Below, in pieces: positions 2,399 to 29,527 of a DNA stretch of 64,000 nucleotides. Numbering within the stretch: position 1 is the first letter of the stretch; every line of letters starts with the position of its first letter. Source of the stretch: Actinomycetota bacterium (GTDB taxonomy: Bacteria > Actinomycetota > Humimicrobiia > Hakubellales > JAMDDV01). Below the pieces are notes generated by a model. That model searched no databases, was not told the DNA's origin, and saw only the letters and a list, made by a program, of their open reading frames with translations. Location of the stretch: NCBI GenBank assembly GCA_023488455.1, contig JAMDDV010000045.1:1-64000 (forward strand). Direction: 5' to 3'. Both the position numbers and the translations under genes were made by a program.

Positions 2399-2411
2399 AT
2401 TTACCCCTTGT

Positions 2412-3368: not shown

Positions 3369-3378
3369 CAATTTTTCC

Positions 3379-3828: not shown

Positions 3829-3831
3829 AGT

Positions 3832-11385: not shown

Positions 11386-11414
11386 CGATCAACGAAACAA
11401 AAAGTACAAGAAGT

Positions 11415-12773: not shown

Positions 12774-12774
12774 A

Positions 12775-13275
12775 ATGTTGAAACCTGGCGAGCTTTATCT
12801 GAACAGGAGTTTTGACAGGGACGAGCTGCTTGGAAAAATAGAATTGTCTCTGGCAGGAATTGAGTACGCTGTCCGGGAAAATTTCGGTGAGGTCTTTCTC
12901 GTAGCTGGTAGAGAAAAATTATTCGAAACGCTCTCAATTTTAAAAGAAAAGCTGGACTTTAATTATTTAAAGTGCCTCACTGCTGCTGACTATGTGGAAT
13001 ATCTTGAGATAATCTACTGTCTTTACTCCTTCTCGAATGCATATTCACTTACCGTGAAATCGAAACTTGATGCTAAAAACCCTGAGGTCCAGAGCGTCTT
13101 CTCCTTATGGCAGGGCGCGGATTGGCATGAAAGGGAGGCTTTTGATCTATTTGGAATAAATTTTATCGGGCATCCGAATCTGAAGAAGCTCGTGCTCTGG
13201 GATGGGTTTGATGAGCATCCACTGCGAAAATCTTTTGCACTTGAGCTGCCTGGTGAGGAAGGTGGTGATTCCTGA
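12775..13275 (+). CDS. nuoC: Complex I subunit C (NuoC, 30 kDa type)
   Basis: About 166 residues, containing the family signature W-H-E-R-E-A-F-D-L-F-G-I and the C-terminal H-P-L-R-K. It packs against NuoD in the connecting module. I chose the ATG at 12775, with AGGAAG a few bases upstream; a TTG at 12757 lies in frame but inside nuoB. It is separate from NuoD, unlike the fused NuoCD of enterobacteria. Confidence 0.92.
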   Translation: MLKPGELYLNRSFDRDELLGKIELSLAGIEYAVRENFGEVFLVAGREKLFETLSILKEKLDFNYLKCLTAADYVEYLEIIYCLYSFSNAYSLTVKSKLDAKNPEVQSVFSLWQGADWHEREAFDLFGINFIGHPNLKKLVLWDGFDEHPLRKSFALELPGEEGGDS

Positions 13276-14393: not shown

Positions 14394-15364
14394 TCATACA
14401 AATATTGACAGTCTTGTTAAAAGTGGTTGGGGCAGTTGCATTTGTAATGCTTAGTGCACTGATTCTTATATTAATGTTACGAAAAGTCATGGGGCACGTA
14501 CAGTCAAGGGTTGGGCCAAACCGCGTTGGCCCATTTGGTCTCCTTCAGACGGTCGCGGATGCGTCAAAACTTCTCTTTAAAGAAGATATAATGCCAGCCA
14601 GCGTTGACAGGTGGTTGTGGCGGATAGCACCGTCCGTGGTCGTGATGGCGTCGATGACCTCGTTTTCGTTTATCCCGTTTGCGAAAAATTTAACAATGGT
14701 CAACTCAGACATAAGCCTGTTCTTCATCTTCGCGATGTCGTCGTTGACATCGGTTGGCGTAATAATGGCCGGCTGGTCATCGAATAACAAGTACTCGCTG
14801 ATTGGCGGCTTGAGGAGCGCAGCTCAGGTCTTGAGCTATGAGGTTCCCCTTGTCCTATCGACTGTTGGGGTCGTCATGATGGCCGGCAGCCTGAACCTCG
14901 TTGATATTGTGGAGAAACAGAAGCACCTGTTCAACATATTCCCCCAATTTTTGGGATTTCTCGTTTTCATGACGGCATCACTGGCTGAGCTTAATCATAC
15001 TCCTTTTGACATCTCTGAAGCGGAGTCGGAGCTTGTGTCAGGGTTTAATACTGAATACTCTGCAATACGGTGGGGGATGTTTTTTTTAGCAGAGTTCTTT
15101 AATGTATTCGTGGTTTCGGCGCTGGGGGCTATTGTTTTCCTGGGCGGATGGAATCCGATCTTTATCCCGCTTCCCGGATTTGTGTGGCTGATAATAAAGT
15201 CATACGTGTTAATTTTTGTGATAATGTGGATACGCTCGACATTCCCGCGGTTTCGTGCCGACCAGTTGTTGAATATAGGCTGGAAACTGCTCTTACCTGC
15301 TTCCCTGATAAATATATTTGGGACTGGAATTGTGCTGCTGATAGTTAAGGGAGGCATCTCCTGA
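14390..15364 (+). CDS. nuoH: Complex I subunit H (NuoH)
   Basis: The 324-residue polytopic protein has the conserved R-V-G-P-N-R-V-G-P entry motif, S-Y-E-V-P-L in the fifth helix and the acidic loop P-F-D-I-S-E-A-E-S-E-L-V-S-G. The glutamates of the E-channel are present. It forms the membrane side of the quinone tunnel. GTG start at 14390 overlaps nuoD by four bases. Confidence 0.94.
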   Translation: MIIQILTVLLKVVGAVAFVMLSALILILMLRKVMGHVQSRVGPNRVGPFGLLQTVADASKLLFKEDIMPASVDRWLWRIAPSVVVMASMTSFSFIPFAKNLTMVNSDISLFFIFAMSSLTSVGVIMAGWSSNNKYSLIGGLRSAAQVLSYEVPLVLSTVGVVMMAGSLNLVDIVEKQKHLFNIFPQFLGFLVFMTASLAELNHTPFDISEAESELVSGFNTEYSAIRWGMFFLAEFFNVFVVSALGAIVFLGGWNPIFIPLPGFVWLIIKSYVLIFVIMWIRSTFPRFRADQLLNIGWKLLLPASLINIFGTGIVLLIVKGGIS

Positions 15365-15852
15365 TGAGGGGAGTCAGTCTGCTGAAGGGACTATTCATAA
15401 CGATCCACGAGTTTTTCAGGCGCAGGGTGACGGTCTATTATCCTGAAGAGATGATCGAAGTTCCTGTGCGTTCTGGTATGCCGGCACTTTTGATCGATTT
15501 TGAAACCTATAATCCTGAAACAAAAGAATATTACTTAAAATGCACTGCATGTGGTGTTTGTGCCAAAAACTGTCCTGACAGGGTGATAACGGTCACAAAG
15601 GCGGAGGGAGAGAGAAAGCAACCTGAAGTTTATCAAGTTGACTTTAGGGGATGTATGTTCTGCGGGATATGCATCGAGGTTTGCCCCTTTGATGCACTGG
15701 GCATGCAGCGTTTTTACGAAAATGCTGCTTACAATAAGGACGATCTGATATTTGATAAGGAAGAGTTGATATACAAAGAGGATTACCCCGAGCTTATGAA
15801 CGATAGGGAAAGAGATTTTTTTGAGAGGAAAAGGAAGGAGTTCAGGTTCTAA
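15364..15852 (+). CDS. nuoI: Complex I subunit I (NuoI), two [4Fe-4S] clusters
   Basis: The 162-residue protein has the pair C-T-A-C-G-V-C-A-K-N-C-P and C-M-F-C-G-I-C-I-E-V-C-P that binds clusters N6a and N6b. Because nuoEFG are missing from the operon, NuoI is the likely entry point for electrons, for example from ferredoxin. That is inference from gene content, as in other 11-subunit complexes. It shares a base with nuoH. Confidence 0.93.
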   Translation: MRGVSLLKGLFITIHEFFRRRVTVYYPEEMIEVPVRSGMPALLIDFETYNPETKEYYLKCTACGVCAKNCPDRVITVTKAEGERKQPEVYQVDFRGCMFCGICIEVCPFDALGMQRFYENAAYNKDDLIFDKEELIYKEDYPELMNDRERDFFERKRKEFRF

Positions 15853-15855
15853 GAG

Positions 15856-16347
15856 TTGGTTGAGCTGATATTTTTTGGCATCTTTACGATCCTTTTGCTA
15901 TTTGCCGCGGTCAAGGTAGTCACTTCGCGAAATATCGTTCACTCCGCATTTTTTCTTATACTTGTGTTGTTCTGTGTCGCAGCGTATTTTATATTGCTAT
16001 TTGCTGAGTTTTTGGCCGCGGTGCAGATTTTGATTTATGCCGGTGCAGTCGTCATACTTGTTCTGTTTGCCCTGATGTTGACACGCGCCAGGGTTGGCGA
16101 GAACACCGAGGTTGCAAACAAGCAGATCATACCAGCAGCAATAGTTTCCCTGGTGCTATTTGGGGTTTTAGGGTACTTCTTTTACATGGAGAAATGGAAT
16201 GTAACACCAGTGCTTATTAAAAGGCCATCTCTCCAGGAGATCTCGGGGTCACTGTTTACAAATTTCGTGCTGCCATTTGAGGTTGCATCCGTGCTTTTGC
16301 TGGCTGCGCTTGTCGGAGCCATAATGCTTGCAATCAAGGAGCAATGA
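15856..16347 (+). CDS. nuoJ: Complex I subunit J (NuoJ)
   Basis: The 163-residue protein has five predicted transmembrane helices and the conserved third-helix motif Q-I-L-I-Y-A-G-A-V-V-I-L-V-L-F, which contains the tyrosine and the pi-bulge region involved in coupling. TTG start at 15856, four bases after nuoI, and a four-base overlap with nuoK. Confidence 0.92.
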   Translation: MVELIFFGIFTILLLFAAVKVVTSRNIVHSAFFLILVLFCVAAYFILLFAEFLAAVQILIYAGAVVILVLFALMLTRARVGENTEVANKQIIPAAIVSLVLFGVLGYFFYMEKWNVTPVLIKRPSLQEISGSLFTNFVLPFEVASVLLLAALVGAIMLAIKEQ

Positions 16348-16655
16348 TGTTAAGGCTGGAATATTTTTTAATTATATCTGCAGCGTTATTTTGCATAGGT
16401 GTATTCGGCGTGCTTTCCCGCCGCCACGTGATTCAACTGCTTTTATCAATAGAGCTGATATTAAATGCGGTCATCATCAATTTTGTCGCCTTTTCGGCTT
16501 TCATGCCCACCGCAAAGCTCACGGGTCAGGTCTTCGCGATTTTCATAATAACCATCGCGGCTGCGGAGGTTGGCGTTGGTTTGGCAGTAATAATATCGAT
16601 ATATAGAAATATTAAAACCGCAAAAATTGAGGACATGAATATATTGAAATGGTAG
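16344..16655 (+). CDS. nuoK: Complex I subunit K (NuoK)
   Basis: The 103-residue protein has three predicted helices. Both membrane glutamates needed for proton pumping in characterised NuoK are present, in L-S-I-E-L-I-L-N and in A-A-A-E-V-G-V-G-L-A. It overlaps nuoJ and nuoL by a few bases. Confidence 0.93.
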   Translation: MMLRLEYFLIISAALFCIGVFGVLSRRHVIQLLLSIELILNAVIINFVAFSAFMPTAKLTGQVFAIFIITIAAAEVGVGLAVIISIYRNIKTAKIEDMNILKW

Positions 16656-18610
16656 ATTTAAATAAGATCGTCTTGATATTTACAGTAGCAATAGTTGGCC
16701 TTCCTGCTCTGAGCTTCCTTTTGCTATTGCTCTTACGAAGGTTCATGCCTAAAAAGGGCTCAGTGCTTGCAACTACACTTGTCGGCATATCGTTATTATT
16801 GTCATTCTTCATCCTTTTCGCAGTACTAAGCACTGGCAACTTTGCATACAGGTTTGCGTGGTACGTCTGGGGAAATCTGAATGTAAGCTTTGGCTTAAAC
16901 ATCGATGAGCTAACCGCGTTAATGCTCGTGGTGGTGTCAGCCATCAGCTTCCTTGTTCACCTCTATTCGATCGGATACATGCACGGTGATAAGCGATTTG
17001 GCTGGTACTTTGCAGTGCTGTCGCTCTTCTCGTCTGCGATGTTGGGTCTTGTTGTTGCGGATAACTACCTACAGATGTACATATTCTGGGAGCTCGTCGG
17101 TCTCTGCTCTTATCTGCTCATAGGGTTCTGGTTTGAGAAGAAGTCGGCAAGCGATGCTGCTAAAAAGGCGTTCATAGTAACCAGGTTAGGTGATGTGGGT
17201 TTTGGGCTTGGAGTGATCTTGCTGTTCACATCAACAGGTTCCTTTGCGTTTAGCGAAATTTTTAGAGCGGCAGAAGGACTGGCTCCCCACATGATCACTG
17301 CTTCTGCCTTACTAATTTTCTGTGGTGCAGTTGGCAAATCAGCACAGTTCCCGCTGCACGTTTGGCTGCCTGATGCCATGGAGGGCCCTACTCCGGTAAG
17401 TGCACTGATACATGCCGCTACCATGGTAGCGGCTGGGGTTTACCTGGTGGCAAGAAGCTTTCCGCTGTTTGAGTTGTCGAAGGTATCCATGAGCGTTGTT
17501 TTATGGATAGGAGCATTTACAGCTCTACTGGCGGCAACCATGGCAGTAGTGATGACTGATATAAAGAAGGTCCTGGCTTATTCGACCATAAGCCAGCTGG
17601 GTTATATGATGGCGGCGCTCGGTGCTGGCGGCTATTTCGCAGGTGTTTTCCACCTGATGACCAACGCCTTTTTCAAGGCGTTGTTGTTCCTGGGATCTGG
17701 AAGCGTCATTCATGCGATTGGAACCCAGGAGATAACCGAGATGGGCGGCCTTGGTAAGAAGATGAAAACCACCGCGATAACCTTTGTCCTGGGTTCTCTT
17801 TCCATAGCGGGCTTTCCGCTCTTTTCGGGCTTCTGGAGCAAGGATGAAGTCCTGGTTGATGTCTTCAACAATAACCTGTTTGCATTTATCATACTTGCCT
17901 TTACTGCTTTTCTAACCGCTTTTTATATGTTCAAGCTCGTATTTTTGACATTTTTTGGAAAATCATCTGATAAAACCGACCATGCACACGAGTCACCTCG
18001 CGTCATGAGGATTCCGCTGATAGTACTGGCTATCTTTGCGGTTGCAGTTGGTTTTATCGGATCACCGCTTCTCCCGGAGGGATTCAGGTTTGCGGTGTTA
18101 TTTTCTCCCAATAGTTTTGAAGCACATCACACTACCCTGAACTATCTGGTCATGATTATATCGGTTGTGCTGGGTCTTGGTGGGATTGCGCTTGCTTATG
18201 GTATGTATGGAGCAAACCGGATCCAAAGGGACTGGCTATCCAGGTTCATAATGCCCTATTACCGACTGCTCAAAAACAAGTACTATTTGGATGAAATTTA
18301 CATGCGAGGAATAGTCAGGCCAGTGCTGTGGATTGCTGATGTCGTCTTTGCGTTTGACCAGAAGGTGATCGATTGGATTGTGAACATGTTTGGTAAGCTT
18401 ACCATCGTTATCAGCAAGGCTATTGGCGTTTTTGACCTGAGTGGCGTAGATGGAGCTGTCAACTGGATTGGAAAGATTACGATGGGCAGCGGTATGAGGG
18501 CAAGAAAAGTACAGACTGGCTATGCGTTGAACTATGCACTTATATTTTTTGCTGTGGTAACTGTGATGATAATATGGATTTTAGTCGTGGGAGGCTTATA
18601 TGCAGGTTGA
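16649..18610 (+). CDS. nuoL: Complex I antiporter-like subunit L (NuoL)
   Basis: The 653-residue protein is of normal NuoL length, with the core antiporter fold and a C-terminal extension that would form the lateral helix. Visible motifs include F-W-E-L-V-G-L, F-P-L-H-V-W-L-P-D-A-M-E-G-P-T-P and K-K-V-L-A-Y-S-T-I-S-Q-L-G-Y-M, which carry the channel glutamate, histidine and lysines. It is the distal pump unit of the first complex and has no counterpart in the second operon. Confidence 0.94.
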   Translation: MVDLNKIVLIFTVAIVGLPALSFLLLLLLRRFMPKKGSVLATTLVGISLLLSFFILFAVLSTGNFAYRFAWYVWGNLNVSFGLNIDELTALMLVVVSAISFLVHLYSIGYMHGDKRFGWYFAVLSLFSSAMLGLVVADNYLQMYIFWELVGLCSYLLIGFWFEKKSASDAAKKAFIVTRLGDVGFGLGVILLFTSTGSFAFSEIFRAAEGLAPHMITASALLIFCGAVGKSAQFPLHVWLPDAMEGPTPVSALIHAATMVAAGVYLVARSFPLFELSKVSMSVVLWIGAFTALLAATMAVVMTDIKKVLAYSTISQLGYMMAALGAGGYFAGVFHLMTNAFFKALLFLGSGSVIHAIGTQEITEMGGLGKKMKTTAITFVLGSLSIAGFPLFSGFWSKDEVLVDVFNNNLFAFIILAFTAFLTAFYMFKLVFLTFFGKSSDKTDHAHESPRVMRIPLIVLAIFAVAVGFIGSPLLPEGFRFAVLFSPNSFEAHHTTLNYLVMIISVVLGLGGIALAYGMYGANRIQRDWLSRFIMPYYRLLKNKYYLDEIYMRGIVRPVLWIADVVFAFDQKVIDWIVNMFGKLTIVISKAIGVFDLSGVDGAVNWIGKITMGSGMRARKVQTGYALNYALIFFAVVTVMIIWILVVGGLYAG

Positions 18611-20063
18611 TCTCTTATCCCTTTTATTATTTTTACCGCTGGTAGGGGCAATCATAATTCTGTTCCTGCCCAGGAAATCAATAGCTGGAGTGAAGTGGGT
18701 GAGCCTCCTATTTTCAATGCCGTCACTGGTCATAAGTTTTGTGCTCTATTTCTTAATGGATCACTCCAAGGGGGGGATGCAGTTTTCCATAAATCTACCC
18801 TGGGTGAGGTCGATAGGTCTTTCCTACCATCTTGGGGTTGACGGGATCAGCCTACCGCTGGTCATCCTAACTGCTATTTTGACCACGATTTCCATAATTG
18901 CATCATGGAACATCGATGAAAAGATAAAGGGATACTTTTCGCTCATGTTGCTGCTTGAGACAGGTATGCTCGGCGTGTTTGTAGCGCTTGATTTCATCCT
19001 ATTCTACATATTCTGGGAGCTTGTCCTGCTTCCGATGTTCTTTCTGATAGGGGTATGGGGAGGGCCTCGAAAAGATTATGCAAGCATAAAGTTCTTTATA
19101 TACACTCTTCTTGGTAGTGTGCTAATGCTGGTCGGCATCCTGGTCCTTTATTTCAATTCCGGGCTAGGTACTTTTGATATGGTTGCACTCGTAGGAGCGA
19201 AATTAAAGCCCGCGATCGAAAATCTGGTATTCATCCTGACATTTCTTGGCTTTGCAGTTAAGGTGCCGATCTGGCCATTTCATACATGGCTTCCAGATGC
19301 CCACGTTGAGGCACCAACAGCTGGCAGTGTTCTGCTTGCGGGCATATTGCTCAAAATGGGGACTTATGGGTTTGTTAGGATTTCGCTTCCCATCCTGCCT
19401 GAGGGCTCCAGGTTCTTTTCATCCATGGTTGCGATCCTGGCTGTCATCAGCATAATATATGGCGCGCTGGCTGCCATGGCGCAGAAGGATCTAAAAAAGA
19501 TGGTCGCGTACTCAAGCGTGAGCCATATGGGCTATGTAATGCTCGGAGTTGCGGCCAACACTCCTGCGGCACTTAACGGCGCGGTCATTCAGATGGTGAG
19601 CCATGGTCTTATCACAGGTATGCTGTTTTTGCTCGTCGGATTGATTTACGAGAGGACGCACACGCGCATGATTGTTGAGCTGGGTGGACTTGCCACAAAA
19701 ATCCCGATCATATCGGGCGTACTTGCATTTACGTCTTTTGCATCGCTTGGACTTCCGGGCTTAAGCGGGTTTTGGGGAGAATTTTTCGTTTTGCTGGGCG
19801 CGTTTTCAAGGGCAACCATGTTTTATAAGATCATGGTTTACATTGCTGCAACCGGAATAGTCATAACTGCGGGATATCTGCTGTGGATGCTTCAGCGCGT
19901 TATCCTTCAGACATATAAATTGAAAGAGGAAAGTTTACCGCGTATTAATGGAAGAGAGATGCTGACACTGGTACCAATAATTATTCTGATAACTCTGATC
20001 GGCGTTTATCCTGCTGTAATCTTAAGAATGATAAACAGCGCGGTTTTGTTGATATCGAGTTAA
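18600..20063 (+). CDS. nuoM: Complex I antiporter-like subunit M (NuoM)
   Basis: The 487-residue protein shows F-W-E-L-V-L-L-P-M-F-F, P-F-H-T-W-L-P-D-A-H-V-E-A-P-T and D-L-K-K-M-V-A-Y-S-S-V-S-H-M-G-Y, all standard NuoM features with the channel residues in place. It overlaps nuoL by 11 bases. Confidence 0.94.
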   Translation: MQVDLLSLLLFLPLVGAIIILFLPRKSIAGVKWVSLLFSMPSLVISFVLYFLMDHSKGGMQFSINLPWVRSIGLSYHLGVDGISLPLVILTAILTTISIIASWNIDEKIKGYFSLMLLLETGMLGVFVALDFILFYIFWELVLLPMFFLIGVWGGPRKDYASIKFFIYTLLGSVLMLVGILVLYFNSGLGTFDMVALVGAKLKPAIENLVFILTFLGFAVKVPIWPFHTWLPDAHVEAPTAGSVLLAGILLKMGTYGFVRISLPILPEGSRFFSSMVAILAVISIIYGALAAMAQKDLKKMVAYSSVSHMGYVMLGVAANTPAALNGAVIQMVSHGLITGMLFLLVGLIYERTHTRMIVELGGLATKIPIISGVLAFTSFASLGLPGLSGFWGEFFVLLGAFSRATMFYKIMVYIAATGIVITAGYLLWMLQRVILQTYKLKEESLPRINGREMLTLVPIIILITLIGVYPAVILRMINSAVLLISS

Positions 20064-20073
20064 GGACGGTCAA

Positions 20074-21480
20074 GTGAACCTGGATGCGCTTTTACCGGAA
20101 ATATCCATATTTGTTTTTGCAGCGATTGCGCTCTTCGCTGCTCTAATTGGAAAGAGCAAAAGCAGGCTGGTCGCTCCGCTGATATCCGTGCTTGGGATAA
20201 TCGTATCGATAGCCTTGCTAATTTTCGTGGTACCCTTTAACAGACAGGCGCTTTATGGGTGGTTCTCTGCGGATGCATTTTCTTACTTTTTCAGGATACT
20301 TTTCATGAATATCGGCATCTTGATGATATTTTTGTCCGCAGATTTCATAAATGATGACGATAGACATCATGGAGAGTACTATTTCCTCCTTTTGATGGTC
20401 GTGCTTGGTGCGATGTTGATTTCATCTGCTAATGACCTGATAATGATATATATATCAATAGAGCTCATAAGTTTTCCTGCTTATATCCTCGCCGGTTTCA
20501 GAAAGAGGGATGTCAGGTCCAATGAAGCTTCGATCAAGTATTTTATCCTTGGTGCGCTTGCCTCTGGACTGCTTCTGTACGGTATGTCGCTTGTTTATGG
20601 TTTGACGGGTACCACTAACCTTCTTGAGATAAGCCAGGCGCTTCCTCGTGGGCTTGATCCTATATTCCTGATCTCGGTGGTCATGATAATTGCAGGTGTC
20701 GGTTTTAAGATTGCCGCGGTCCCATTCCATTTCTGGAGTCCTGATACGTATGAGGGAGCTCCGATCACGGTTACCACGCTACTTGCCACGATGTCCAAAC
20801 TTGCTGGTTTTGTCGCACTTTATCGCATTTTGATATTTGCCTTTGGTGATTTTGCTGGAATATGGGCCAAGGTCATCGCAGTGCTGGCAGTTCTTTCGAT
20901 GGTATTTGGTAATTTAATTGCACTGCCTCAAAATAACATGAAGCGACTTTTGGCATATTCCGGCATTGCGCATGTCGGATATATGTTGATAACCTTTACC
21001 TTTTTCTCCGCAGATGCGAGGTGGTCACTCATAGTTTATTTTCTTGCTTATATTTTCATGAACATCGGAGCTTTTTCAGTTGCAATGATCGTTGAGAAGA
21101 CAAAGAAGTCAAGCGAGTTATCTTCTTTTGCAGGTCTTGGTTATTCTAATCCTTATCTTGGAGTGGCGATGACCATATTCATGATGTCACTGGTAGGGCT
21201 TCCACCTTTTGCTGGGTTTATCGGGAAACTTTACGTTTTCAAATCCGCCGTGGAGAATGGACAGCTTTACCTGGTTATAATCGGCGTGATAACAAGCGTA
21301 ATATCGCTTTATTTTTATTTGAAAGTCGTAAGACAGATGTATTTTGAAAAAGGAGATGGTATAAAAGTCGAGGTGCCAATCCTGACATTAGTTGTCATAA
21401 CTATTTGCGTTATATATACTCTTTTGATAGCATTATACCCTGAGTTTTTCACAAGGATCGCTATTTCGGCAACCTCCTGA
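20074..21480 (+). CDS. nuoN: Complex I antiporter-like subunit N (NuoN)
   Basis: The 468-residue protein has S-I-E-L-I-S-F-P-A-Y, G-F-K-I-A-A-V-P-F-H-F-W-S-P-D-T-Y-E-G-A-P and M-K-R-L-L-A-Y-S-G-I-A-H-V-G-Y, with all expected channel residues. GTG start at 20074, ten bases after nuoM. It ends the first complex I operon and is the comparison for the altered NuoN-like protein at 26206. Confidence 0.93.
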   Translation: MNLDALLPEISIFVFAAIALFAALIGKSKSRLVAPLISVLGIIVSIALLIFVVPFNRQALYGWFSADAFSYFFRILFMNIGILMIFLSADFINDDDRHHGEYYFLLLMVVLGAMLISSANDLIMIYISIELISFPAYILAGFRKRDVRSNEASIKYFILGALASGLLLYGMSLVYGLTGTTNLLEISQALPRGLDPIFLISVVMIIAGVGFKIAAVPFHFWSPDTYEGAPITVTTLLATMSKLAGFVALYRILIFAFGDFAGIWAKVIAVLAVLSMVFGNLIALPQNNMKRLLAYSGIAHVGYMLITFTFFSADARWSLIVYFLAYIFMNIGAFSVAMIVEKTKKSSELSSFAGLGYSNPYLGVAMTIFMMSLVGLPPFAGFIGKLYVFKSAVENGQLYLVIIGVITSVISLYFYLKVVRQMYFEKGDGIKVEVPILTLVVITICVIYTLLIALYPEFFTRIAISATS

Positions 21481-21506
21481 TTTGGGGTTGCTATTTTTTG
21501 TCAGTT

Positions 21507-21560: not shown

Positions 21561-21926
21561 ATGGAACCTGAAATTAGTTTTAGTCTTGTAAACTTGCTAA
21601 TATTTGTTGGCACGGTATTTTTTTTGTTTGCTCTCATCACTTTCATCTCAAGAAGGATCAGGCCAAAGACAATTCTAAGCGAGACAAAATATGTGGATTC
21701 TGGTAGATTTGAGATAAAGGCAAGCGATGATCATTCTTACAGGTTTTTTAGCGCCTCTATTTTTGCCGCGATATCAATTTTTCTCATGGTCTCGCTGCTT
21801 GCACTTGGGGCAGTTTCTGCGATGTCAACTGGCTTTGACAAACTGCTTGTTTTTGGAATACTTTATTCAATCTTTTTGCTTCTGGTGGGTGTTACGTTTC
21901 TGATAGAAAAGGGAATATTTAGCTAA
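21561..21926 (+). CDS. NuoA-like subunit of the second complex I-like operon
   Basis: The 121-residue protein has three predicted helices and the length and position of NuoA, but its signature residues are gone. Y-E-C-G has become Y-V-D-S-G, and the helix motif F-D-V-E-T-V-F aligns with hydrophobic A-I-S-I-F-L-M. It is assigned to NuoA from topology and gene order (first gene before NuoB-, C- and D-like genes). The loss of both acidic residues suggests the loop and helix no longer take part in quinone-linked coupling. Confidence 0.7.
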   Translation: MEPEISFSLVNLLIFVGTVFFLFALITFISRRIRPKTILSETKYVDSGRFEIKASDDHSYRFFSASIFAAISIFLMVSLLALGAVSAMSTGFDKLLVFGILYSIFLLLVGVTFLIEKGIFS

Positions 21927-21928
21927 TT

Positions 21929-22387
21929 ATGAACGATGATAAAAATATATCTTTAGTCGGTGAATATTTTAGGTCTTTTGTAAATTGGGGAAGATGCCAC
22001 TCCATTGGCATATACCTGGTAGGCAGTGGGTGCTGCGCGCAGGAGATGGAGTCCATATTCAATCCGAGCTATGATGCGGAGAGGCTAGGCATCTATCATG
22101 TTTCATCTCCTCGTCATGCAGATCTACTGGTTGTGGGGGGTCCAATAAATAATAAGATGACAGGCGAGATAGTTAAGATTTATTCGGAAATCGGCATGCC
22201 TAAATGGGTCATAGCAAACGGTGCGTGTTCGTGCGGTGGGGGTTTGTTTAACAGGTATGGGAATTTGAAAAAGTTGCGTGATCTTGTTAAGGTGGACCTT
22301 TTCGTTCCGGGGTGCCCTCCCAGGCCCGAGGCACTTATATATTCTATTCTACGCCTCAGGCTTAAGATAAAATTGACGGCGCATTGA
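21929..22387 (+). CDS. NuoB-like N2-cluster subunit of the second complex
   Basis: The 152-residue protein keeps all four cluster ligands: C35-C36 in G-S-G-C-C-A-Q-E, a cysteine in G-A-C-S-C-G-G-G and one in P-G-C-P-P-R-P-E. The extra cysteine giving C-S-C resembles the C-A-C of energy-converting hydrogenase small subunits. Electron transfer to the NuoD-like partner should therefore still be possible. It starts two bases after the NuoA-like gene. Confidence 0.85.
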   Translation: MNDDKNISLVGEYFRSFVNWGRCHSIGIYLVGSGCCAQEMESIFNPSYDAERLGIYHVSSPRHADLLVVGGPINNKMTGEIVKIYSEIGMPKWVIANGACSCGGGLFNRYGNLKKLRDLVKVDLFVPGCPPRPEALIYSILRLRLKIKLTAH

Positions 22388-22406
22388 TCTCCGGAGAGGT
22401 AGTGTT

Positions 22407-22886
22407 TTGATAGAAAATATAGAACAGCTATATCTAAAGGGTAAATTAGCCAAGCTTCTACTGGAAGAAGAGATTTCAAGGGTTCCTTCTGGCAGGGAAG
22501 TTGACGTTAAGGTACTTGAAAAGCGGATAGATATAAAGCTGGATGGGCGTGATCTTATAGATGTGCTTAAGAAACTTCGTGAATCCGAGAAGCTTTCTTT
22601 TGATTTCCTGGACTGCATAATCTGCTATCAGGAGAAGGATAATTTCTCGCTTATCTATCTGATATACTCCACTGAGACGTGGCAGACATTGAACATAAAA
22701 GCAGTTTTGTCAGCAGGCATGAGTTCAATTGAGTCAGTCACAAGTATTTATCCTGCTGCATTTCTCATGGAACACGAAATCTTTGAAATGTACGGGATTG
22801 ACTTCGAGGGAGTCAACTACGACACCAATCTGTTTCTCACTCCTGGAGATAGTAGTTTTCCCATGAGGAGAAATACAGATGGCTGA
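22407..22886 (+). CDS. NuoC-like subunit of the second complex
   Basis: The 159-residue protein has E-H-E-I-F-E-M-Y-G-I-D-F in place of the canonical W-H-E-R-E-A-F-D-L-F-G-I and ends in a weakened P-M-R-R-N, so it is a divergent member of the 30 kDa family. The N-terminal 60 residues are charged and have no clear match. It overlaps the NuoD-like gene by eight bases. TTG start at 22407. Confidence 0.78.
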   Translation: MIENIEQLYLKGKLAKLLLEEEISRVPSGREVDVKVLEKRIDIKLDGRDLIDVLKKLRESEKLSFDFLDCIICYQEKDNFSLIYLIYSTETWQTLNIKAVLSAGMSSIESVTSIYPAAFLMEHEIFEMYGIDFEGVNYDTNLFLTPGDSSFPMRRNTDG

Positions 22887-23976
22887 GCGCGATGTGGTTG
22901 TTCTGAACCTCGCCAGTCCTCTTCCGGGGCTTGACAGATATTTCAGGCTTAAAATCAAGGTAAAGGGTGAAGTTGTGGAGGACTGTGAGCCCGAGATAGG
23001 ATTTTCTCATAAGGGTCTTGAGAAAACTGCGGAGTTAATGATATCCAAGCAGATTCCATTTCTTGCTTCAAAGATCGATTCATCAAGTGGCATTTCAGGT
23101 GAGGTGGCTTACGCTACGGCTGTGGAGTCCGCGCTGTCGCTGAAAGTGCCAGAGCGGGCAAATACGATCAGGGTGGTTTTGATGGAGATCTCCAGGATTG
23201 CCAGCCATCTTGGTTGGCTGTCCAACTTTTCGCTGGCAGTTGGGTTTGTCACCTGCTATCACTATGCCCAGCGTGATAGGGAGATGGCGCTCAGGTTCAT
23301 AGAGCTTTTAACTGGCTCAAGAATTTCCCCCAATTTCTGTGTGCCCGGCGGTGTCAAGAGCGATTTAAAATCAAGTGTCATATTTGAACTCCTGGACTTT
23401 CTGACATACCTGGACGGGCGAATGCGTGAGTTCGACCTTTTATTGACCGAGAATAAATTTTTCAGGGGAAAGGTTGATAATATTGGCCGCATCCAGCGTG
23501 AACATGCAATGACTCTTGGATTGACAGGACCGAATCTTCGTGCATGTGGTGAGAGAATGGACATCAGAAAGATTGCACCGTATTGTGGTTATGAAAACTT
23601 GAACTTCAAGATACCCGTCGGCAGGAGAGGTGACTGTTTCGACAGGTATCAGGTACGGATGAAGGAGATCAGGGAATCATCTGACATCTTGAAGAGTCTT
23701 TTAAGCAATATGCCAGATGGGGATGTTTATATAAAACCGTTAATTGATGTACGCAGCCGTGAGGTCGAGGAGTATGCACGGGTGGAATGTCCACATGGAG
23801 AACTCGGAATTTTTATCAAGTATGATCTACAGGACGTTCCTACGAGATTCAAGGCGAGAACTCCTTCACTGGTATCCGTGTCGCTGTTAAAAGATGCGCT
23901 GGTCAATCAACGTATTTCTGATGTAGGAGTGATCGTGAGCAGCTTTGACATCTGTTTAAGTGAGGTTGACCGTTGA
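22879..23976 (+). CDS. NuoD-like subunit without the quinone-site residues
   Basis: The 365-residue protein aligns with NuoD at 13275 without gaps over the N-terminal region. The quinone-site motif H-P-S-C-H becomes L-P-G-L-D (H22 to L15, H26 to D19) and the quinone-contacting tyrosine becomes S68. The [NiFe] cysteine pairs of hydrogenases are also missing; the C terminus is D-I-C-L-S-E-V-D-R, like the first NuoD. It is thus neither a normal quinone-reducing subunit nor a hydrogenase. The frame is intact and well conserved elsewhere, so it is probably functional with another acceptor or as a coupling subunit. Confidence 0.82.
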   Translation: MAERDVVVLNLASPLPGLDRYFRLKIKVKGEVVEDCEPEIGFSHKGLEKTAELMISKQIPFLASKIDSSSGISGEVAYATAVESALSLKVPERANTIRVVLMEISRIASHLGWLSNFSLAVGFVTCYHYAQRDREMALRFIELLTGSRISPNFCVPGGVKSDLKSSVIFELLDFLTYLDGRMREFDLLLTENKFFRGKVDNIGRIQREHAMTLGLTGPNLRACGERMDIRKIAPYCGYENLNFKIPVGRRGDCFDRYQVRMKEIRESSDILKSLLSNMPDGDVYIKPLIDVRSREVEEYARVECPHGELGIFIKYDLQDVPTRFKARTPSLVSVSLLKDALVNQRISDVGVIVSSFDICLSEVDR

Positions 23977-24941
23977 TTTACTTTTATTCATTTCTTAAGT
24001 CGCTCGGCTTGCTTGCTTTGATGCTGATAGCAGTCTATGTGATGATATATTTAGACCGTAAGCTCGTCGGGCACCTTCAGGCAAGGCATGGTCCTATGGC
24101 CGGCTTTCACGGTATTGTGCAGCCGCTCACGGACTGGCTAAAGATGACCTTCAAGGGCAGGTCAGTATCTCAGAATAGTAGAGGAGCATTGGTGATATTT
24201 GCTCCGGCGTTTGCCCTGATTCCTGCGACCCTTATTTACACAATAATTCCCGTCTCAAGAAAACTGCTTTTATACAGGATGGATGTCGGCCTGATGTTGA
24301 TTTTTGCGTTGCTCTTCCTATCGATCCTGGGAATTTCAGTCGCAGGTTTGTCATCCGGCAACAGGCAATCTGCTTTTGGGTCGCTTTATGTGGTGGCAAA
24401 TGCGCTTGGTTTTATTCTCCCGATGATAATATCAACCATAAGTGTGATGTTTCTGTCCGGGAGCATGGATGTGATTGACATAATCAATGCTCAGAACAAG
24501 GCATGGTTTGTGTTGACTCAGCCCATAGGTGCGTTGATTTTTTTGATGTCCACTATCCAGCTTGTGGGTCGCAGTCAACTTGAGATACCTTCGATAGATC
24601 TGCAAAATATTGCGGGGTTTGATGCGGAGTTCTCGGGAGTTAACCTGAATTTTCTCAGGCTCACTGAATACATCAACGTGCTTACGCTGATCGGGCTCAC
24701 TACGATGATATATCTGGGCGGATGGTTAGGCCCAATAAACCTGCGCTCCATCGGATGGTACATAGTTAAAACTTATGCGGTGCTCTTACTGGTGCTCTGG
24801 ATTAAGAATAGCATACCCTGGCCGCGGTTTGAGGCATCCATGAGCAGGATTTCGTGGAGGTTTTTGTTCCCGCTATCTGTTTTTAACCTGATCCTGACGA
24901 TTGTGTTCGTTGTTTTTATTAAACCTTTGATACGGGTGTGA
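23973..24941 (+). CDS. NuoH-like membrane subunit with altered E-channel
   Basis: The 322-residue protein has the NuoH topology and an R-H-G-P-M-A-G entry motif related to R-V-G-P-N-R-V-G-P. The fifth-helix S-Y-E is replaced by G-F-I, and the acidic loop E-A-E-S-E aligns with S-I-D-L-Q; only the later E of D-A-E-F-S is kept. These glutamates carry protons in canonical complex I, so coupling must differ. It overlaps the NuoD-like gene by four bases. Confidence 0.8.
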   Translation: MIYFYSFLKSLGLLALMLIAVYVMIYLDRKLVGHLQARHGPMAGFHGIVQPLTDWLKMTFKGRSVSQNSRGALVIFAPAFALIPATLIYTIIPVSRKLLLYRMDVGLMLIFALLFLSILGISVAGLSSGNRQSAFGSLYVVANALGFILPMIISTISVMFLSGSMDVIDIINAQNKAWFVLTQPIGALIFLMSTIQLVGRSQLEIPSIDLQNIAGFDAEFSGVNLNFLRLTEYINVLTLIGLTTMIYLGGWLGPINLRSIGWYIVKTYAVLLLVLWIKNSIPWPRFEASMSRISWRFLFPLSVFNLILTIVFVVFIKPLIRV

Positions 24942-24942
24942 T

Positions 24943-25368
24943 ATGGAAAGCATTTTAAAAAGTATGTGGCAGACCTTGAAGAACATGTTCAGGAGATCGG
25001 TAACTGTGCTGTATCCCTATGATAAGATAGTTGTTCCTGAGACGAGTAGGGGGATGATAATCCTGAGGGTTGATCCGGATTCTCATGAGCTGCTTTGCAC
25101 GGGCTGTGGTGAATGCAAAAGGGTATGTCCGACAGGTGTGATAGATGTTTCATCTGTTAACGATGGCGAAAAGCAGCAGGCATCGACTTTCAAGCTTGAT
25201 ATTTCAAACTGCGTTTTCTGTGGTTTATGCGTGGATGTCTGTCCATATTCTGCTATCGAAATGACGTATAAGTATGAGCTCACTGCCTCTCATGCTGATT
25301 ATTTGCAGTATGAGCTTGAAGAGCTCGTCGAGTACGGTAAACAGAAGCCAAGAGAGTTCTGGATATGA
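24943..25368 (+). CDS. NuoI-like ferredoxin subunit of the second complex
   Basis: The 141-residue protein has two intact motifs, C-T-G-C-G-E-C-K-R-V-C-P and C-V-F-C-G-L-C-V-D-V-C-P, so the electron wire to the NuoB-like subunit is complete. The N-terminal R-R-S-V-T-V-L-Y-P resembles the R-R-V-T-V-Y-Y-P of the first NuoI. No electron-input gene accompanies it, so a soluble donor such as ferredoxin is the simplest guess. Confidence 0.88.
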   Translation: MESILKSMWQTLKNMFRRSVTVLYPYDKIVVPETSRGMIILRVDPDSHELLCTGCGECKRVCPTGVIDVSSVNDGEKQQASTFKLDISNCVFCGLCVDVCPYSAIEMTYKYELTASHADYLQYELEELVEYGKQKPREFWI

Positions 25369-25850
25369 TAGTGCTGTTTTCTATCTGCGGTGCAGCGATA
25401 TTTATTTCCTCAATAATGGCCATGGTGTCAAAAAGGCCCTCTTCTGCAATAATCTTCTCGCTAATTGCTGGTTCTGCTTCATTTGGACTTTTTACCATGG
25501 TTGTCTCGCACACCGTCGGCCTGTTCGCACTGATCTCGGTATTTGTATTCGCAGCAGTTGCCTATGTTCTTGAACTTGGAGAGAGGGGAACTCCTGAGAA
25601 GATTAACATCGAAACAGTCAACTTAGCCATATCGCTTATTGCTGCAATTGGTATTGGAGCACTGCTGGTGGTCTCTTTTTATTATTCAAGTATCGAGGTA
25701 AATGTGGGAGATAGTGCAGTTCCGATAAGGCCACAGGAGATTGGCAGGTTCATTTTTATTGATGCACTGTATCCCTTTATCATGTTATCGAACCTCGTTC
25801 TTCTGTCGCTTCTTGCGGTTGCGGTGAATGCTGTGAAGCGCAGACAGTAA
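25365..25850 (+). CDS. NuoJ-like membrane subunit of the second complex
   Basis: The 161-residue protein has five predicted helices and follows NuoI, as NuoJ does. The third-helix motif Y-A-G-A-V of the first NuoJ is replaced by A-L-I-S-V, so the conserved tyrosine and glycine are missing. The family call rests on position, size and topology more than on sequence. Confidence 0.65.
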   Translation: MIVLFSICGAAIFISSIMAMVSKRPSSAIIFSLIAGSASFGLFTMVVSHTVGLFALISVFVFAAVAYVLELGERGTPEKINIETVNLAISLIAAIGIGALLVVSFYYSSIEVNVGDSAVPIRPQEIGRFIFIDALYPFIMLSNLVLLSLLAVAVNAVKRRQ

Positions 25851-25862
25851 AGGAGTATTAAT

Positions 25863-26213
25863 TTGATAGATCTAAAGTGGGTTATATATGCTGCAGTATG
25901 GTTGATGATGGTCGGGACTTTTGGGCTGGCATTTAAACGGCGAATGTCCATGCTCGCCCTATCTTTTCTTTTTCTGGTTATTGGAGTTGAACTGATTTTG
26001 ACCACGATATCAGTTTATGTGAAGCCTGATAGTCCATCTGGCCCAGCCCTGGCGATTATATCTACGATAATTTTTGCTTTGGTTGGTCTTTTAGGCATTA
26101 TGTCGAGCGTGACCATGTGGTCAGATGGACACAGCAAGCGCGAATTTTCGTTGTTCGCTTTTAAGCTAACTGACATTGAGGAAATAAGGGACGGAGAAGA
26201 AGAAATTGGATAA
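25863..26213 (+). CDS. NuoK-like membrane subunit of the second complex
   Basis: The 116-residue protein has three predicted helices. The first membrane glutamate is kept (G-V-E-L-I-L-T), but the second (A-A-A-E-V-G-V in NuoK1) aligns with leucine in I-I-F-A-L-V-G-L. It has a charged C-terminal tail of about 25 residues that NuoK1 lacks. TTG start at 25863; it overlaps the antiporter-like gene by eight bases. Confidence 0.7.
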   Translation: MIDLKWVIYAAVWLMMVGTFGLAFKRRMSMLALSFLFLVIGVELILTTISVYVKPDSPSGPALAIISTIIFALVGLLGIMSSVTMWSDGHSKREFSLFAFKLTDIEEIRDGEEEIG

Positions 26214-27672
26214 TCTTTTGAACTGGCAAACACTGCTGTCAGATTATAAATTACTGTCTCCTGAACTTTCGCTGGCTGGAGGCTTACTTCTTACCATAAT
26301 TTTTTTAATTCTTTTCCCGCGCAGGAAGTGGATTGCCGTCTGGCCAATGATTTCGATTCTGGCGTCCGGATATTTTAACTTCTGGAGCCTTGATATCAGC
26401 GGCTACGCTTTAAACAACATGATAGTATCCAATCCTAACGTTACGATCACCAAATTTGCGGTGCTGCTCAGTGGGCTTGGCCTGATCATTCTGCTTTTGC
26501 TTTTCATCAGGCGATCAGATGACCGATTTGGGTTTTTCCTGATAATATTTTCCTCGCTCATCTTTGGGGTAAACGCGGTAGCAGCGAGCTCCGACCTCAT
26601 ATCCGTTTTTGTGTCCCTTGAGTTGGTCTCCTTTTCGATATATGCTGCTCTTAATTTTTCTACGCAAAACGGTGGAGGCAGGGAATTTTCGGTTAGATTT
26701 ACCTTGATAGGGCTTCTGTCATCAATTTTCATGTTATTGGGATTTGCACTTGTCTTTGGCCTTGCGAACACGACAATAGTCACGGATGCCCTAGCCAATA
26801 TGCCGCTGAACCATCCGCTGACTTATGCATCGGTATGGCTGATAAGTCTTGGACTCATAGCTAAACTCGGCATGATCCCGTTTTTCGCATATCAGCAGGA
26901 TGCAATCGGGGCCTCTAATTCGATGATCGGTGTTGCGTTGACCTCTCTGTTCCTACCCTCTGTAGCTCTCGTTTTCTTCAAGTTTGCTCCTGGCTTCAAT
27001 GTATTAGCTGGTGGCTATTTTATGTGGAGTATGGTGGGTGCATCTGGACTCACTATTCTGACCACTGGCGCTTTTCTGTTCTTTCAGAGAAGTATCAGGC
27101 GTATATTATCACTATTATCGACGCTGATATTTTTTGGAATACTTACAATATTTGTAACAGGCATTACTGATATTTCCACGCCAGCTTATGTGCTTGTAAT
27201 CATAACTTCGTTCAATCTGTCGGCGATATGGATTACCTGTGGGATTGTTGAACGAAGTTTTCCAGGTTTAAAGCTAAGAGACATTAACGGTCTCATCAAG
27301 ACCAGCCCATTCTTTGCTGTGATCTTGACCATCCTGTTGTTGACTCTGTCTCTCATGCCTTTGTTCATTTCTAACTATTTCGCATTGTACAGGAACCTAA
27401 CAGCATTATACTATGCATACCCTCCTACATATCTTGCGTTGATTGCAACTGTATCAATAATTATTGTTCTTGGTTGCTCCATATACATTGCGTACATCAT
27501 GATCCTACGGAAACCAGAGGTAGGACCTGAATTTATGGTACCCAGGTTTTCGTACGTATATCTTTCTCTCGCATCGGCCATAATGCTCGGCATCTATGTT
27601 CTTGGTTATCTGGACATTTTTGGCGGAATTAACTATTTTTATTATGCGATGAAGCTCTTATCAACGTTTTAA
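26206..27672 (+). CDS. Single antiporter-like (NuoN-type) subunit of the second complex
   Basis: The 488-residue polytopic protein keeps the fifth-helix glutamate (S-L-E-L-V-S-F) and the lysine in I-A-K-L-G-M-I-P-F. However, P-F-H-F-W-S-P-D-T-Y-E-G is replaced by P-F-F-A-Y-Q-Q-D-A-I-G-A, and the later K-R-L-L-A-Y-S-G-I-A-H by R-R-I-L-S-L-L-S-T-L-I. It is the only antiporter-type subunit in the operon, so at most one ion channel is expected, against three in the first complex. It ends the second operon. Confidence 0.75.
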   Translation: MDNLLNWQTLLSDYKLLSPELSLAGGLLLTIIFLILFPRRKWIAVWPMISILASGYFNFWSLDISGYALNNMIVSNPNVTITKFAVLLSGLGLIILLLLFIRRSDDRFGFFLIIFSSLIFGVNAVAASSDLISVFVSLELVSFSIYAALNFSTQNGGGREFSVRFTLIGLLSSIFMLLGFALVFGLANTTIVTDALANMPLNHPLTYASVWLISLGLIAKLGMIPFFAYQQDAIGASNSMIGVALTSLFLPSVALVFFKFAPGFNVLAGGYFMWSMVGASGLTILTTGAFLFFQRSIRRILSLLSTLIFFGILTIFVTGITDISTPAYVLVIITSFNLSAIWITCGIVERSFPGLKLRDINGLIKTSPFFAVILTILLLTLSLMPLFISNYFALYRNLTALYYAYPPTYLALIATVSIIIVLGCSIYIAYIMILRKPEVGPEFMVPRFSYVYLSLASAIMLGIYVLGYLDIFGGINYFYYAMKLLSTF

Positions 27673-27782: not shown

Positions 27783-28322
27783 ATGACTAAAAAACCTGAT
27801 GAAGTGCTCTTAATCATTGATATGTTGAATGACTTCACATTGAAAGGTGCTCCGATTGAGGTGCCCGAAAATTCGCGGATATTATCAAATATAAAAAAAC
27901 AGATTAAGGCAGCGCATGAAGATGGAGTCCCAGTGATATTCATAAATGACAGCCACGATCCTAATGATCGTGAATTTAAGGTCTGGCCAAAGCATGCAGT
28001 AAAGGGGACGCGAGGAGCACAGGTAGTGGATGAAATTGCACCAACAGTCAAAGATCTTATCATCGAGAAAAACACTTTATCAGGATTTTATAATACAAAG
28101 CTGGAATCGATTCTGAAGGACCTTGGAGTTAAGAAGATTAAACTATGCGGCTGTATCTCAAACATATGTGTGTTATACATTGCGTTTGATGCTACTTTAA
28201 GGGGATATAATGTTGAAGTCATAGAAGATTGCATTGCTGCACTGAACAAAGAGGATCACAATTTTGCCATGAAACAGCTTGAAAACGTGATTGGGGCAAA
28301 AGTTATCAGGAGAAAAAGTTGA
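27783..28322 (+). CDS. pncA: Nicotinamidase-type cysteine hydrolase
   Basis: The 179-residue isochorismatase-superfamily protein has the catalytic triad: the aspartate in I-I-D-M-L-N-D-F, the lysine in I-E-K-N-T-L-S-G-F and the cysteine in G-C-I-S-N-I-C-V. Nicotinamidase converts nicotinamide to nicotinate for NAD salvage. The next gene, overlapping by four bases, is nicotinate phosphoribosyltransferase, which uses that product, so the function is well supported by context. A TATAAT at 27693-27698 upstream could be its -10 box, with a poor -35. Confidence 0.87.
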   Translation: MTKKPDEVLLIIDMLNDFTLKGAPIEVPENSRILSNIKKQIKAAHEDGVPVIFINDSHDPNDREFKVWPKHAVKGTRGAQVVDEIAPTVKDLIIEKNTLSGFYNTKLESILKDLGVKKIKLCGCISNICVLYIAFDATLRGYNVEVIEDCIAALNKEDHNFAMKQLENVIGAKVIRRKS

Positions 28323-29527
28323 AATCGTTATTTTATACTGCGACTGATGATGAGATTAAAAACGGCAGGACTGCGGATGTATATTTTCAGAGGGCATTTG
28401 AAATAATAAAAAAAGAAGGCATGGATAGGCGCGCCAGGTCTGAGATAATTTTGAAGAAGTTCAATGATGGAGGCAGTTGGGGTGTACTCGCTGGCATGGA
28501 GGAAGCACTCAATCTCCTTGAAGGGGTCAATGTAAATGTCGAATGCATGCAGGAGGGTGCAGTCTTTAGGACATGGGAACCCGTGATGACCATTGATGGC
28601 ATGTACTGCGATTATTGTGTTTATGAAACTGCCCTGCTTGGGCTGCTCTGTCAGGCCTCCGGGATAGCGACTAAGGCTGCAAGATGTCGTATAGCGGCAG
28701 GCGAAAAGTTGATGATCTCTTTTGGTGCCAGGCGTATGCACCCTGCCATATCCCCGATGATCGATAAGAACGCTTATATTGGCGGATGTGATGGGGTTTC
28801 GGTGATCAAATCGGCCGAACTTCTTGGCGTCGAGCCGACCGGTACCATCCCACATGCACTCATAATAATTTACGGTGATACCGTGAAAGCAGCGCAGGCT
28901 TTTAACGAGATTATCGATAAGAAAGTAAAACGCGTCATTCTCATAGATACCTTTAACGATGAGAAGTTCGAGGCTTTGAGGGTCGCAAAGACGCTTGGCG
29001 ATGATCTCTTTGCGGTGCGACTCGATACCCCGAGTTCACGGAGAGGTGATTTCAAGCAGTTGATTAAAGAGATCAGGTGGGAGCTGGACCTGCGCGGGTT
29101 TAAGGATGTGAAGATTTTTGTAAGCGGTGGCCTAAACGAAAAGTCAATTGCAGAGCTTGTAGATGTGGCTGACGCATTTGGGGTTGGGACATCGATTAGC
29201 AGCGCTCCTGTGCTTGATTTCGCGCTTGACATAGTTGAGGTGGACGGTGAGCCGATCGCAAAGCGGGGCAAATCCTCAGGAGTCAAGGCGGTTTTGAGGT
29301 GTAGCGAGTGCCACAACGACCGTGTTGTTCCATATGATGTCAGTTTATATGACAGGTTTGGGTTTTCTAGTAAACAAAAAGAGGATCTGAGATGTGATTG
29401 TAGTGGTGATCTACTTGAGCTACTTGATGTTGCGATTTCAGATGGTAGGTTATTGAGACCGTACTGTTCGCATAGTGAAACACGTGAATTTGTCCTTTCA
29501 CAGCTCCAGTGGGCAAAAAATATCTAA
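28319..29527 (+). CDS. pncB: Nicotinate phosphoribosyltransferase
   Basis: The 402-residue protein has the family segment F-G-A-R-R-M-H-P-A and a barrel with D-T-F-N-D-E and V-S-G-G-L-N, matching bacterial and archaeal nicotinate phosphoribosyltransferases. It makes nicotinate mononucleotide from nicotinate and PRPP. The C-terminal part carries a small cysteine set (C-S-E-C-H, later C-D-C), possibly a zinc site. It overlaps pncA, forming a two-gene NAD salvage operon next to NAD(H)-dependent redox genes. Confidence 0.88.
   Translation: MKSLFYTATDDEIKNGRTADVYFQRAFEIIKKEGMDRRARSEIILKKFNDGGSWGVLAGMEEALNLLEGVNVNVECMQEGAVFRTWEPVMTIDGMYCDYCVYETALLGLLCQASGIATKAARCRIAAGEKLMISFGARRMHPAISPMIDKNAYIGGCDGVSVIKSAELLGVEPTGTIPHALIIIYGDTVKAAQAFNEIIDKKVKRVILIDTFNDEKFEALRVAKTLGDDLFAVRLDTPSSRRGDFKQLIKEIRWELDLRGFKDVKIFVSGGLNEKSIAELVDVADAFGVGTSISSAPVLDFALDIVEVDGEPIAKRGKSSGVKAVLRCSECHNDRVVPYDVSLYDRFGFSSKQKEDLRCDCSGDLLELLDVAISDGRLLRPYCSHSETREFVLSQLQWAKNI

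Follow-up and report, generated by a model that had tools for sequence, protein, structure and literature searches.

In respiratory complex I, E157 of NuoH, D79 of NuoA, and E36 and E72 of NuoK, together with His and Tyr of the quinone site, make up the coupling path that links the quinone site to the pumps, according to the available text of PMC13324432. MBS reduces its substrate at the proximal cluster without a quinone or a [NiFe] site, as stated in the part of PMC7684303 open to us. The single-cell genome of a Hakuba actinobacterium was reported to encode an NADH-quinone oxidoreductase, Rnf and the Wood-Ljungdahl pathway, and the excerpt consulted of that report describes no second operon (PMC7325909). 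Prior work also includes a 2025 survey of complex I variants (PMC12361115) and PMC9751293, both represented here by excerpts. We analyzed a 64,000-nucleotide stretch of DNA (hereinafter the window; positions 1 to 64,000 of contig JAMDDV010000045.1, Actinomycetota bacterium), in which a second complex I-like block with the gene order A-B-C-D-H-I-J-K-N (21561-27672, + strand) follows a canonical nuo operon. No description of this nine-gene operon or of its family was found among the literature matches listed (titles and starts of abstracts, with most subscription journals outside), and a search on the name 'Hakubella' gave no match. The block looks like a distinct, long-maintained machine and not a decaying copy, because related versions are present in many drafts of the class that contains Candidatus Hakubella.

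The nine open reading frames (ORFs) of the block have no internal stops and are tightly packed or overlapping, and A2 starts 80 bases after the end of nuoN. The genes and the adjacent features are as follows (TM, transmembrane helix; the suffix 2 marks subunits of the second block).

11926-21480, + strand: canonical nuoABCDHIJKLMN, 11 genes without EFG, given as context
21468-21492, + strand: terminator-like hairpin and T tract, a consensus match that overlaps the nuoN end, ahead of A2
21561-21926, + strand: A2, NuoA-like; no acid at the D79 and E81 positions, Ser at the loop Cys position
21929-22387, + strand: B2, NuoB-like; all four Cys of the N2 iron-sulfur cluster present
22407-22886, + strand: C2, NuoC-like; a gene of its own in the window and in Hakubella
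22879-23976, + strand: D2, NuoD-like; HPSTHG gone, DY changed to DS, E-x-x-R/K-G changed to E-C304-P-H306-G, [NiFe] Cys set absent
23973-24941, + strand: H2, NuoH-like; E157 and several loop carboxylates gone, E222 (reference numbering) present
24943-25368, + strand: I2, NuoI-like; all eight [4Fe-4S] Cys present
25365-25850, + strand: J2, NuoJ-like; TM3 Y/G motif gone
25863-26213, + strand: K2, NuoK-like; Leu at the E36 position, Val at the E72 position
26206-27672, + strand: N2, the only antiporter-like subunit, of the NuoN type; TM5 Glu and TM7 Lys present, TM8 and TM12 Lys absent

The hairpin is weak evidence, because seven terminator-like sites were found in the region compared with 6.9 expected from shuffles.

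The subunits of the block are recognizable as members of the Nuo set. Pfam recognizes B, C, D, H, I, and N; J falls below the gathering score, and A2 and K2 have no Pfam match. In NCBIfam, B2 passes one subfamily cut-off, while C2, D2, H2, I2, and N2 match their Nuo models below the cut-offs shown. Profile-profile comparison of the family to which the block belongs (types 2, 3, and 4, described below) assigns each of A, B, C, D, H, I, J, K, and N to its own Nuo counterpart, with probabilities of 95.7 for A to NuoA, 95.1 for J to NuoJ, and 97.8 for K to NuoK, and next-best matches at 1.0 or less. The family antiporter matches NuoN (E 2.3e-34), then NuoM (2.9e-15) and NuoL (1.2e-13). Structural models, each of a single chain, agree in kind: the AlphaFold2 model of N2 (mean predicted local distance difference test score, pLDDT, 80.5) best matches NuoN/ND2 chains, with TMq of 0.76-0.82 in the best 25 rows, and that of D2 (mean pLDDT 91.5) matches the 49-kDa chains of complex I, with TMq of 0.90-0.92 over the 50 rows listed.

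The electron-transfer residues are retained nearly everywhere in the family. The four Cys of the N2 cluster are found in 28, 29, 29, and 29 of 29 family B sequences (tandem pair first), and all eight [4Fe-4S] Cys are present in each of the 22 rows of I (24 less a duplicate and a row whose genome is not a carrier). For these counts, rows with less than 75% query coverage and identical rows were dropped, and types 2-4 contribute one row per genome, except for NuoI. D positions are numbered as in T. thermophilus through the printed alignment; names for A, H, and K are those of E. coli, transferred through match ranges, and the E. coli names for the NuoN positions are in part those we take to apply.

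By contrast with canonical rows, the residues of the quinone site and of the coupling path are largely lost. Specifically, the His34 and His38 positions of D hold His in none of 31 family rows versus 47 of 47 canonical rows, and Tyr is absent from the Y87 position in all five rows of types 2 and 4. E157 of NuoH is found in 0/31 family rows (canonical, 48/48), D79 of NuoA in 0/24 (43/46), and E81 of NuoA in 2/24 (45/46). At the NuoA loop Cys position, where A2 has Ser, canonical rows have Cys in 30 and Ser in 14 of 44. Neither E36 nor E72 of NuoK occurs in any of 23 family rows, compared with 31/31 and 30/31 canonical rows; the Glu of K2 lies seven residues past the E36 position, not at it. For NuoN, the family retains the TM8 Lys in 0 of 21 rows (22 of 23 canonical), the TM7 Lys in one, with Arg in three more (23 of 23), the TM5 Glu in four (22 of 23), and the TM12 Lys in six (23 of 23). 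None of the TM5, TM7, and TM8 charged residues is retained in type 3.

The D subunit has also gained residues. C304 and P305 are present in 31 of 31 family rows and H306 in 28 of 31, whereas position 306 is Arg or Lys in 38 of 47 canonical rows. By motif, this position is that of the canopy Arg/Lys known from hydrogenases and complex I, a residue treated in the accessible text of PMC9474812. The canopy Asp is retained in 25 of 31 rows and His110 in all 31. A motif scan found no NiFe Cys motif (RxCGxC, DPCxxC) in 74 D rows; as a positive example, the hydrogenase D protein L168 of the same class has ERICGIC, EAPRG, and DPCIGC, and PRG occupies the canopy position both there and in the window's group 3 hydrogenase. 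A [NiFe] hydrogenase identity is ruled out by these motifs.

The first-pass annotation of this DNA, made from the letters and their ORFs, had proposed nine genes in nuo order 80 bases after a complete nuoABCDHIJKLMN operon, with intact frames, a preserved iron-sulfur wire, and one antiporter-type subunit. All of this is borne out by the nine + strand ORFs, by the iron-sulfur ligands checked one residue at a time, and by N2 being the only subunit of its kind, with a model that best matches NuoN/ND2 chains. Its list of hallmark losses in A, D, H, J, K, and N is likewise correct residue by residue, except that N2 keeps the TM5 Glu and TM7 Lys.

A scan of one genome per species found a single locus, in Candidatus Hakubella thermalkaliphila S34, where nuoN is followed after a 58-base gap by A2, B2, C2, D2, H2, and the start of I2, the same tandem arrangement as in the window. 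The contig ends inside I2, after 23 residues, of which 18 are the same as in the window; the Hakubella N2 was not found in S34. Identity to the window is 52% for B2, 32% for C2, 48% for D2, and 47% for H2, while the canonical set on the same contig is more similar (B1 71%, C1 54%, D1 71%, H1 65%); A2 aligns at 38% over 29 residues only (E 0.036). Protein searches, which give no gene context, returned nearer relatives at 93 and 90% for D2, 94 and 89% for H2, and 89, 80, and 87% for N2, the last of these with 81% of the query covered. The D2 motif ECPHG is present, among the best 120 of 663 D proteins, in P0001-P0003 and P0072 only. Coverage outside the phylum is by such protein searches, which required shared 5-residue words and listed the best 120.

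Related versions are widespread in Hakubella's class. A D profile search of 40 draft genomes gave a match in 33 and the family in 32, with type 2, that of the window, in one, type 4 in three, and type 3 in 28. The sequence was read in 31 of the 32 carriers; G244 was counted by frame length alone. Type 4 has the same order with one antiporter, A-B-D-H-I-J-K-N, in three small genomes (G035, G060, and G180), and C was not found in it. In type 3 (A-B-CD-H-I-J-K-N), C and D are fused into a protein of about 500 residues, the added part of which is NuoC by profile comparison (probability 95); it had no Pfam match in the one protein tested. All eight subunit types, in one order and with one N-type subunit, are found in 18 of 26 type 3/4 loci. 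N is cut by the contig end in four of these 18, the remaining eight loci are contig-cut or have no detectable A, and BLAST found no L/M-like ORF in any of the 26. The search for the block in related genomes, suggested by the first reading, thus returned A2 to H2 and the start of I2 in S34 and all eight shared subunit types in those 18 loci. Across 396 sampled genomes of the phylum, where unfetched matches were judged by frame length and end position, family-type matches at E 1e-85 or better all fall in Hakubella's class. Other D matches, in G223, G255, and G299, have [NiFe] hydrogenase motifs; the one in G299 appears split over two frames (L172 504-1524).

Canonical nuoD was found in seven of the 40 genomes (G001, G094, G233, G297, G299, G303, and G305), six of which also carry the family. 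It was not found in 26 of the 32 carrier drafts, and the family is therefore not simply riding along with complex I. Such absences are soft, because the genomes are drafts.

In D trees, the family looks like a sister lineage to canonical NuoD. In a tree of 73 rows (rows covering fewer than 300 positions excluded), a branch (100/99) separates the 47 canonical rows from those of types 2, 4, and 3. When one [NiFe] hydrogenase D from the same class was added as outgroup to 20 of the 47 canonical rows, the hydrogenase joined the canonical side (98/94). A larger tree with the same outgroup took in 37 canonical rows (12 of the 47 and 25 of 120 listed database proteins) and, from type 3, 10 of 19 rows; all 17 rows of the family are set apart from the others by one branch (98/92), and the canonical rows stand alone at 87/87. 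None of these trees places D2 or its family inside canonical NuoD; they have long branches and one outgroup row. They are evidence and not proof, because of a long-branch warning (outgroup 1.85-2.12). The hydrogenase-outgroup trees cover the D subunit only. A concatenated B+D+H+I tree of 35 operons has the same ladder. A recent duplication of the adjacent nuo operon is not favored by the D trees, and per-subunit scores are mixed: the other family members give A2, B2, I2, and K2 better scores than canonical profiles do, and C2 has no type 3/4 partner to compare.

Selection appears to have kept the block's relatives. Ratios of nonsynonymous to synonymous substitution (dN/dS, Nei-Gojobori) are 0.12-0.49 in 46 of 48 comparisons, made on eight subunits in six pairs (five among type 3 genomes G083, G126, G202, and G213, and one of type 4, G035 and G180); the exceptions are two J pairs at 0.64 and 0.67, with dS of 0.03-0.04. 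Decay is not favored by the intact frames, the residue conservation, and dN/dS. The earlier suggestion of a specialised machine rather than decay is thus sustained by the tandem block in Hakubella, the mostly intact family frames, and the low dN/dS. Dispersed, frame-broken homologues were not seen, and neither were subunits inside recent canonical Nuo duplicates, as D2 falls outside in the D trees. The word 'paralogous' proved loose for a sister lineage whose carriers mostly have no canonical nuoD that could be found.

We regard it as an evenly balanced proposition that the block encodes a redox complex fed by ferredoxin, with an acceptor other than the canonical one and with weak coupling of the complex I type or none. 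In its favor are the retained iron-sulfur ligands, the lost quinone-site and coupling residues, the His at the canopy position, the low dN/dS, the D-tree branch at 98/92, and the 25 of 32 carriers in which neither MenD nor PF02621 exceeds its cut-off. The suggested change of acceptor or coupling mode rests on residue loss. Specifically, a reduced carrier such as ferredoxin, the presumed donor because the NADH module is absent, would deliver electrons to I2, and its two [4Fe-4S] clusters would pass them to the N2 cluster in B2. An acceptor other than an ordinary quinone might then be reduced in the rebuilt B/D/H pocket near C304, H306, H110, and D357. The membrane arm would anchor the complex, with weak or no coupling along the complex I route. 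A bolder version of this proposal, which we consider less likely than not, is that the family is a sister branch to canonical complex I that kept the wire and dismantled quinone site and proton pump, that it reduces an undescribed acceptor at the Cys-Pro-His pocket, and that it is the main complex I-like enzyme of many Wood-Ljungdahl actinobacteria.

Several observations weigh against these proposals. Subunits D2, H2, J2, and N2 score better with canonical profiles than with the rest of the family, and the concatenated tree isolates the canonical rows weakly (Shimodaira-Hasegawa approximate likelihood ratio, SH-aLRT, 93; ultrafast bootstrap, UFBoot, 51), so that the D trees carry the argument against duplication. 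The dN/dS values belong to type 3/4 relatives and not to the window's own lineage, and the alignments of A and J are weak. In G233, the type 3 N gene is broken into two frames (L153 5616-7233, - strand), possibly by a frameshift or a draft error. In type 3, 25 of 26 D rows still have an aromatic residue at the Y87 position, Tyr in 16 and Trp in nine. In the window's N2 and in its three relatives, two of the four canonical charged residues are retained, the TM5 Glu and the TM7 Lys. MenD or PF02621 (MqnA/D) exceeds the cut-off in seven of 32 carriers, Hakubella included (G001, G005, G072, G094, G116, G159, and G244). A partial MenD match below the cut-off is present in G298, and a UbiA-type prenyltransferase in 25 of the 40 class genomes. 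Because four of the seven canonical nuoD genomes also have neither MenD nor PF02621, the absence of quinone genes does not separate the block from canonical Nuo.

Some of these observations bear directly on a rival explanation, that the complex remains a (mena)quinone reductase and its site has been rebuilt, in which case protons would come from Ser, His306, or water and N2 would pump one ion. The resemblance of the D2 model to complex I 49-kDa chains, the retained canopy Asp and His110, the aromatic residue at Y87 in type 3, the menaquinone markers in seven carriers, and the two charged residues of N2 all speak for it. Nevertheless, both quinone-loop His are missing from all 31 family D rows, and neither marker exceeds its cut-off in 25 of the 32 carriers (over the 40 class genomes, MenD does so in seven and PF02621 in three). 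The block is thus found mostly in drafts without detectable menaquinone synthesis, and we consider this rival rather unlikely.

It is more doubtful still that the complex works like MBS, with the N2-like cluster reducing sulfane sulfur or another small soluble oxidant and a residual ion path in the membrane arm. The use of a proximal cluster without quinone or NiFe in MBS, in the text seen of PMC7684303, is a precedent, new Cys and His residues line the former active-site canopy, and the hydrogenase upstream of nuoA is of the sulfhydrogenase type. However, B retains the tandem Cys found in complex I, whereas catalysis by MBS, as that text describes it, needs a cluster with one non-Cys ligand, and the block has one antiporter where MBS has two. 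A non-catalytic or regulatory pseudo-enzyme, such as an assembly scaffold derived from complex I, might account for the loss of many functional residues from the membrane subunits and for the relative with a split N, and is highly improbable given the near-complete iron-sulfur ligand sets, the low dN/dS across the operon in relatives, and the 26 carriers in which canonical nuoD was not found.

The family is a natural experiment, in which quinone-loop His, E-channel, and most pump residues have apparently been removed to differing degrees in types 2, 4, and 3 and selection appears to have kept the operon. Complex I coupling has been debated largely through point mutants. The family could show whether a redox wire is useful without a pump, for which reduction the ancestral pocket was re-tooled, and how anaerobic actinobacteria of this class handle low-potential electrons.

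The surroundings of the loci contain further redox genes. In the window, HdrA- and HdrB-like genes, a likely HdrC, and HydB/HydG-like iron-sulfur and flavin modules (519-7225, - strand; HdrC, HydB, and HydG assigned by eye) run divergent from a hydrogenase operon immediately upstream of nuoA (7471-11849, + strand). This operon contains beta, gamma, delta, and alpha genes of a sulfhydrogenase-type (group 3) [NiFe] hydrogenase and a maturation protease; the subunit names are best NCBIfam matches below the cut-offs. Immediately after the block lie isochorismatase-family and QPRTase-family genes, possibly for nicotinamide salvage (27783-29527, + strand). A RuBisCO-like protein is encoded at 40937-42319 (- strand), with 2,3-diketo-5-methylthiopentyl-1-phosphate enolase as best NCBIfam match, below the cut-off.

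In type 4, an acetyl-CoA synthase gene adjoins the block in G060 and G180; that of G180 encodes a protein above the alpha/beta cut-off for carbon monoxide dehydrogenase/acetyl-CoA synthase (CODH/ACS), that of G060 was recognized by eye, and in G035 the contig start is too close. The type 4 neighbors comprise CODH/ACS genes (L101 5884-9233; L081 12609-14789 by eye) and a small DUF1858 redox-disulfide protein (L101; L100 227-508 by eye). Downstream of N, 17 of 26 type 3/4 loci have a member of one ORF cluster on the same strand, 40 bases away or less in 12 of the 16 printed. The ORF after N is a DUF1287 protein in both loci tested, L104 (10443-11213) and L081. A DUF1287 protein follows N in many type 3 operons and is not beside the window's block, and was rejected as a subunit of the complex. 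L104, the one locus tested for them, also has an AI-2E family transporter and LarC among its conserved neighbors.

Compared with known systems, the block has features of several relatives of complex I. Group 4 [NiFe] hydrogenases have NiFe Cys motifs in D that are absent from the family, and their canopy Arg is His here. The single antiporter is shared with Mbh, and the C-D fusion of type 3 with HycE. The sulfane sulfur reductase MBS is, like the block, a complex I relative without [NiFe] or quinone residues; it has two antiporters and a three-Cys proximal cluster, in the portion seen of PMC7684303, compared with one antiporter and a four-Cys site in the block. Ehr, compared by its description in the available text of PMC6349859, also combines a D subunit without Ni-Fe ligands with an antiporter-like subunit, whereas the A, J, and K subunits and the tandem Cys of the block are complex I traits. 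Respiratory complex I (NDH-1/Nuo, including the 11-subunit form without NuoEFG) has L, M, and N antiporter-like subunits where the block has the N type only. The quinone His and the E-channel residues (E157 of H, D79 of A, E36 and E72 of K) are lost in the block's family, and family D lies outside canonical NuoD in D trees. Nevertheless, gene order, subunit types, the tandem-Cys N2 site, and the absence of [NiFe] ligands are common to both, and chains of complex I are the best matches for the D2 and N2 models.

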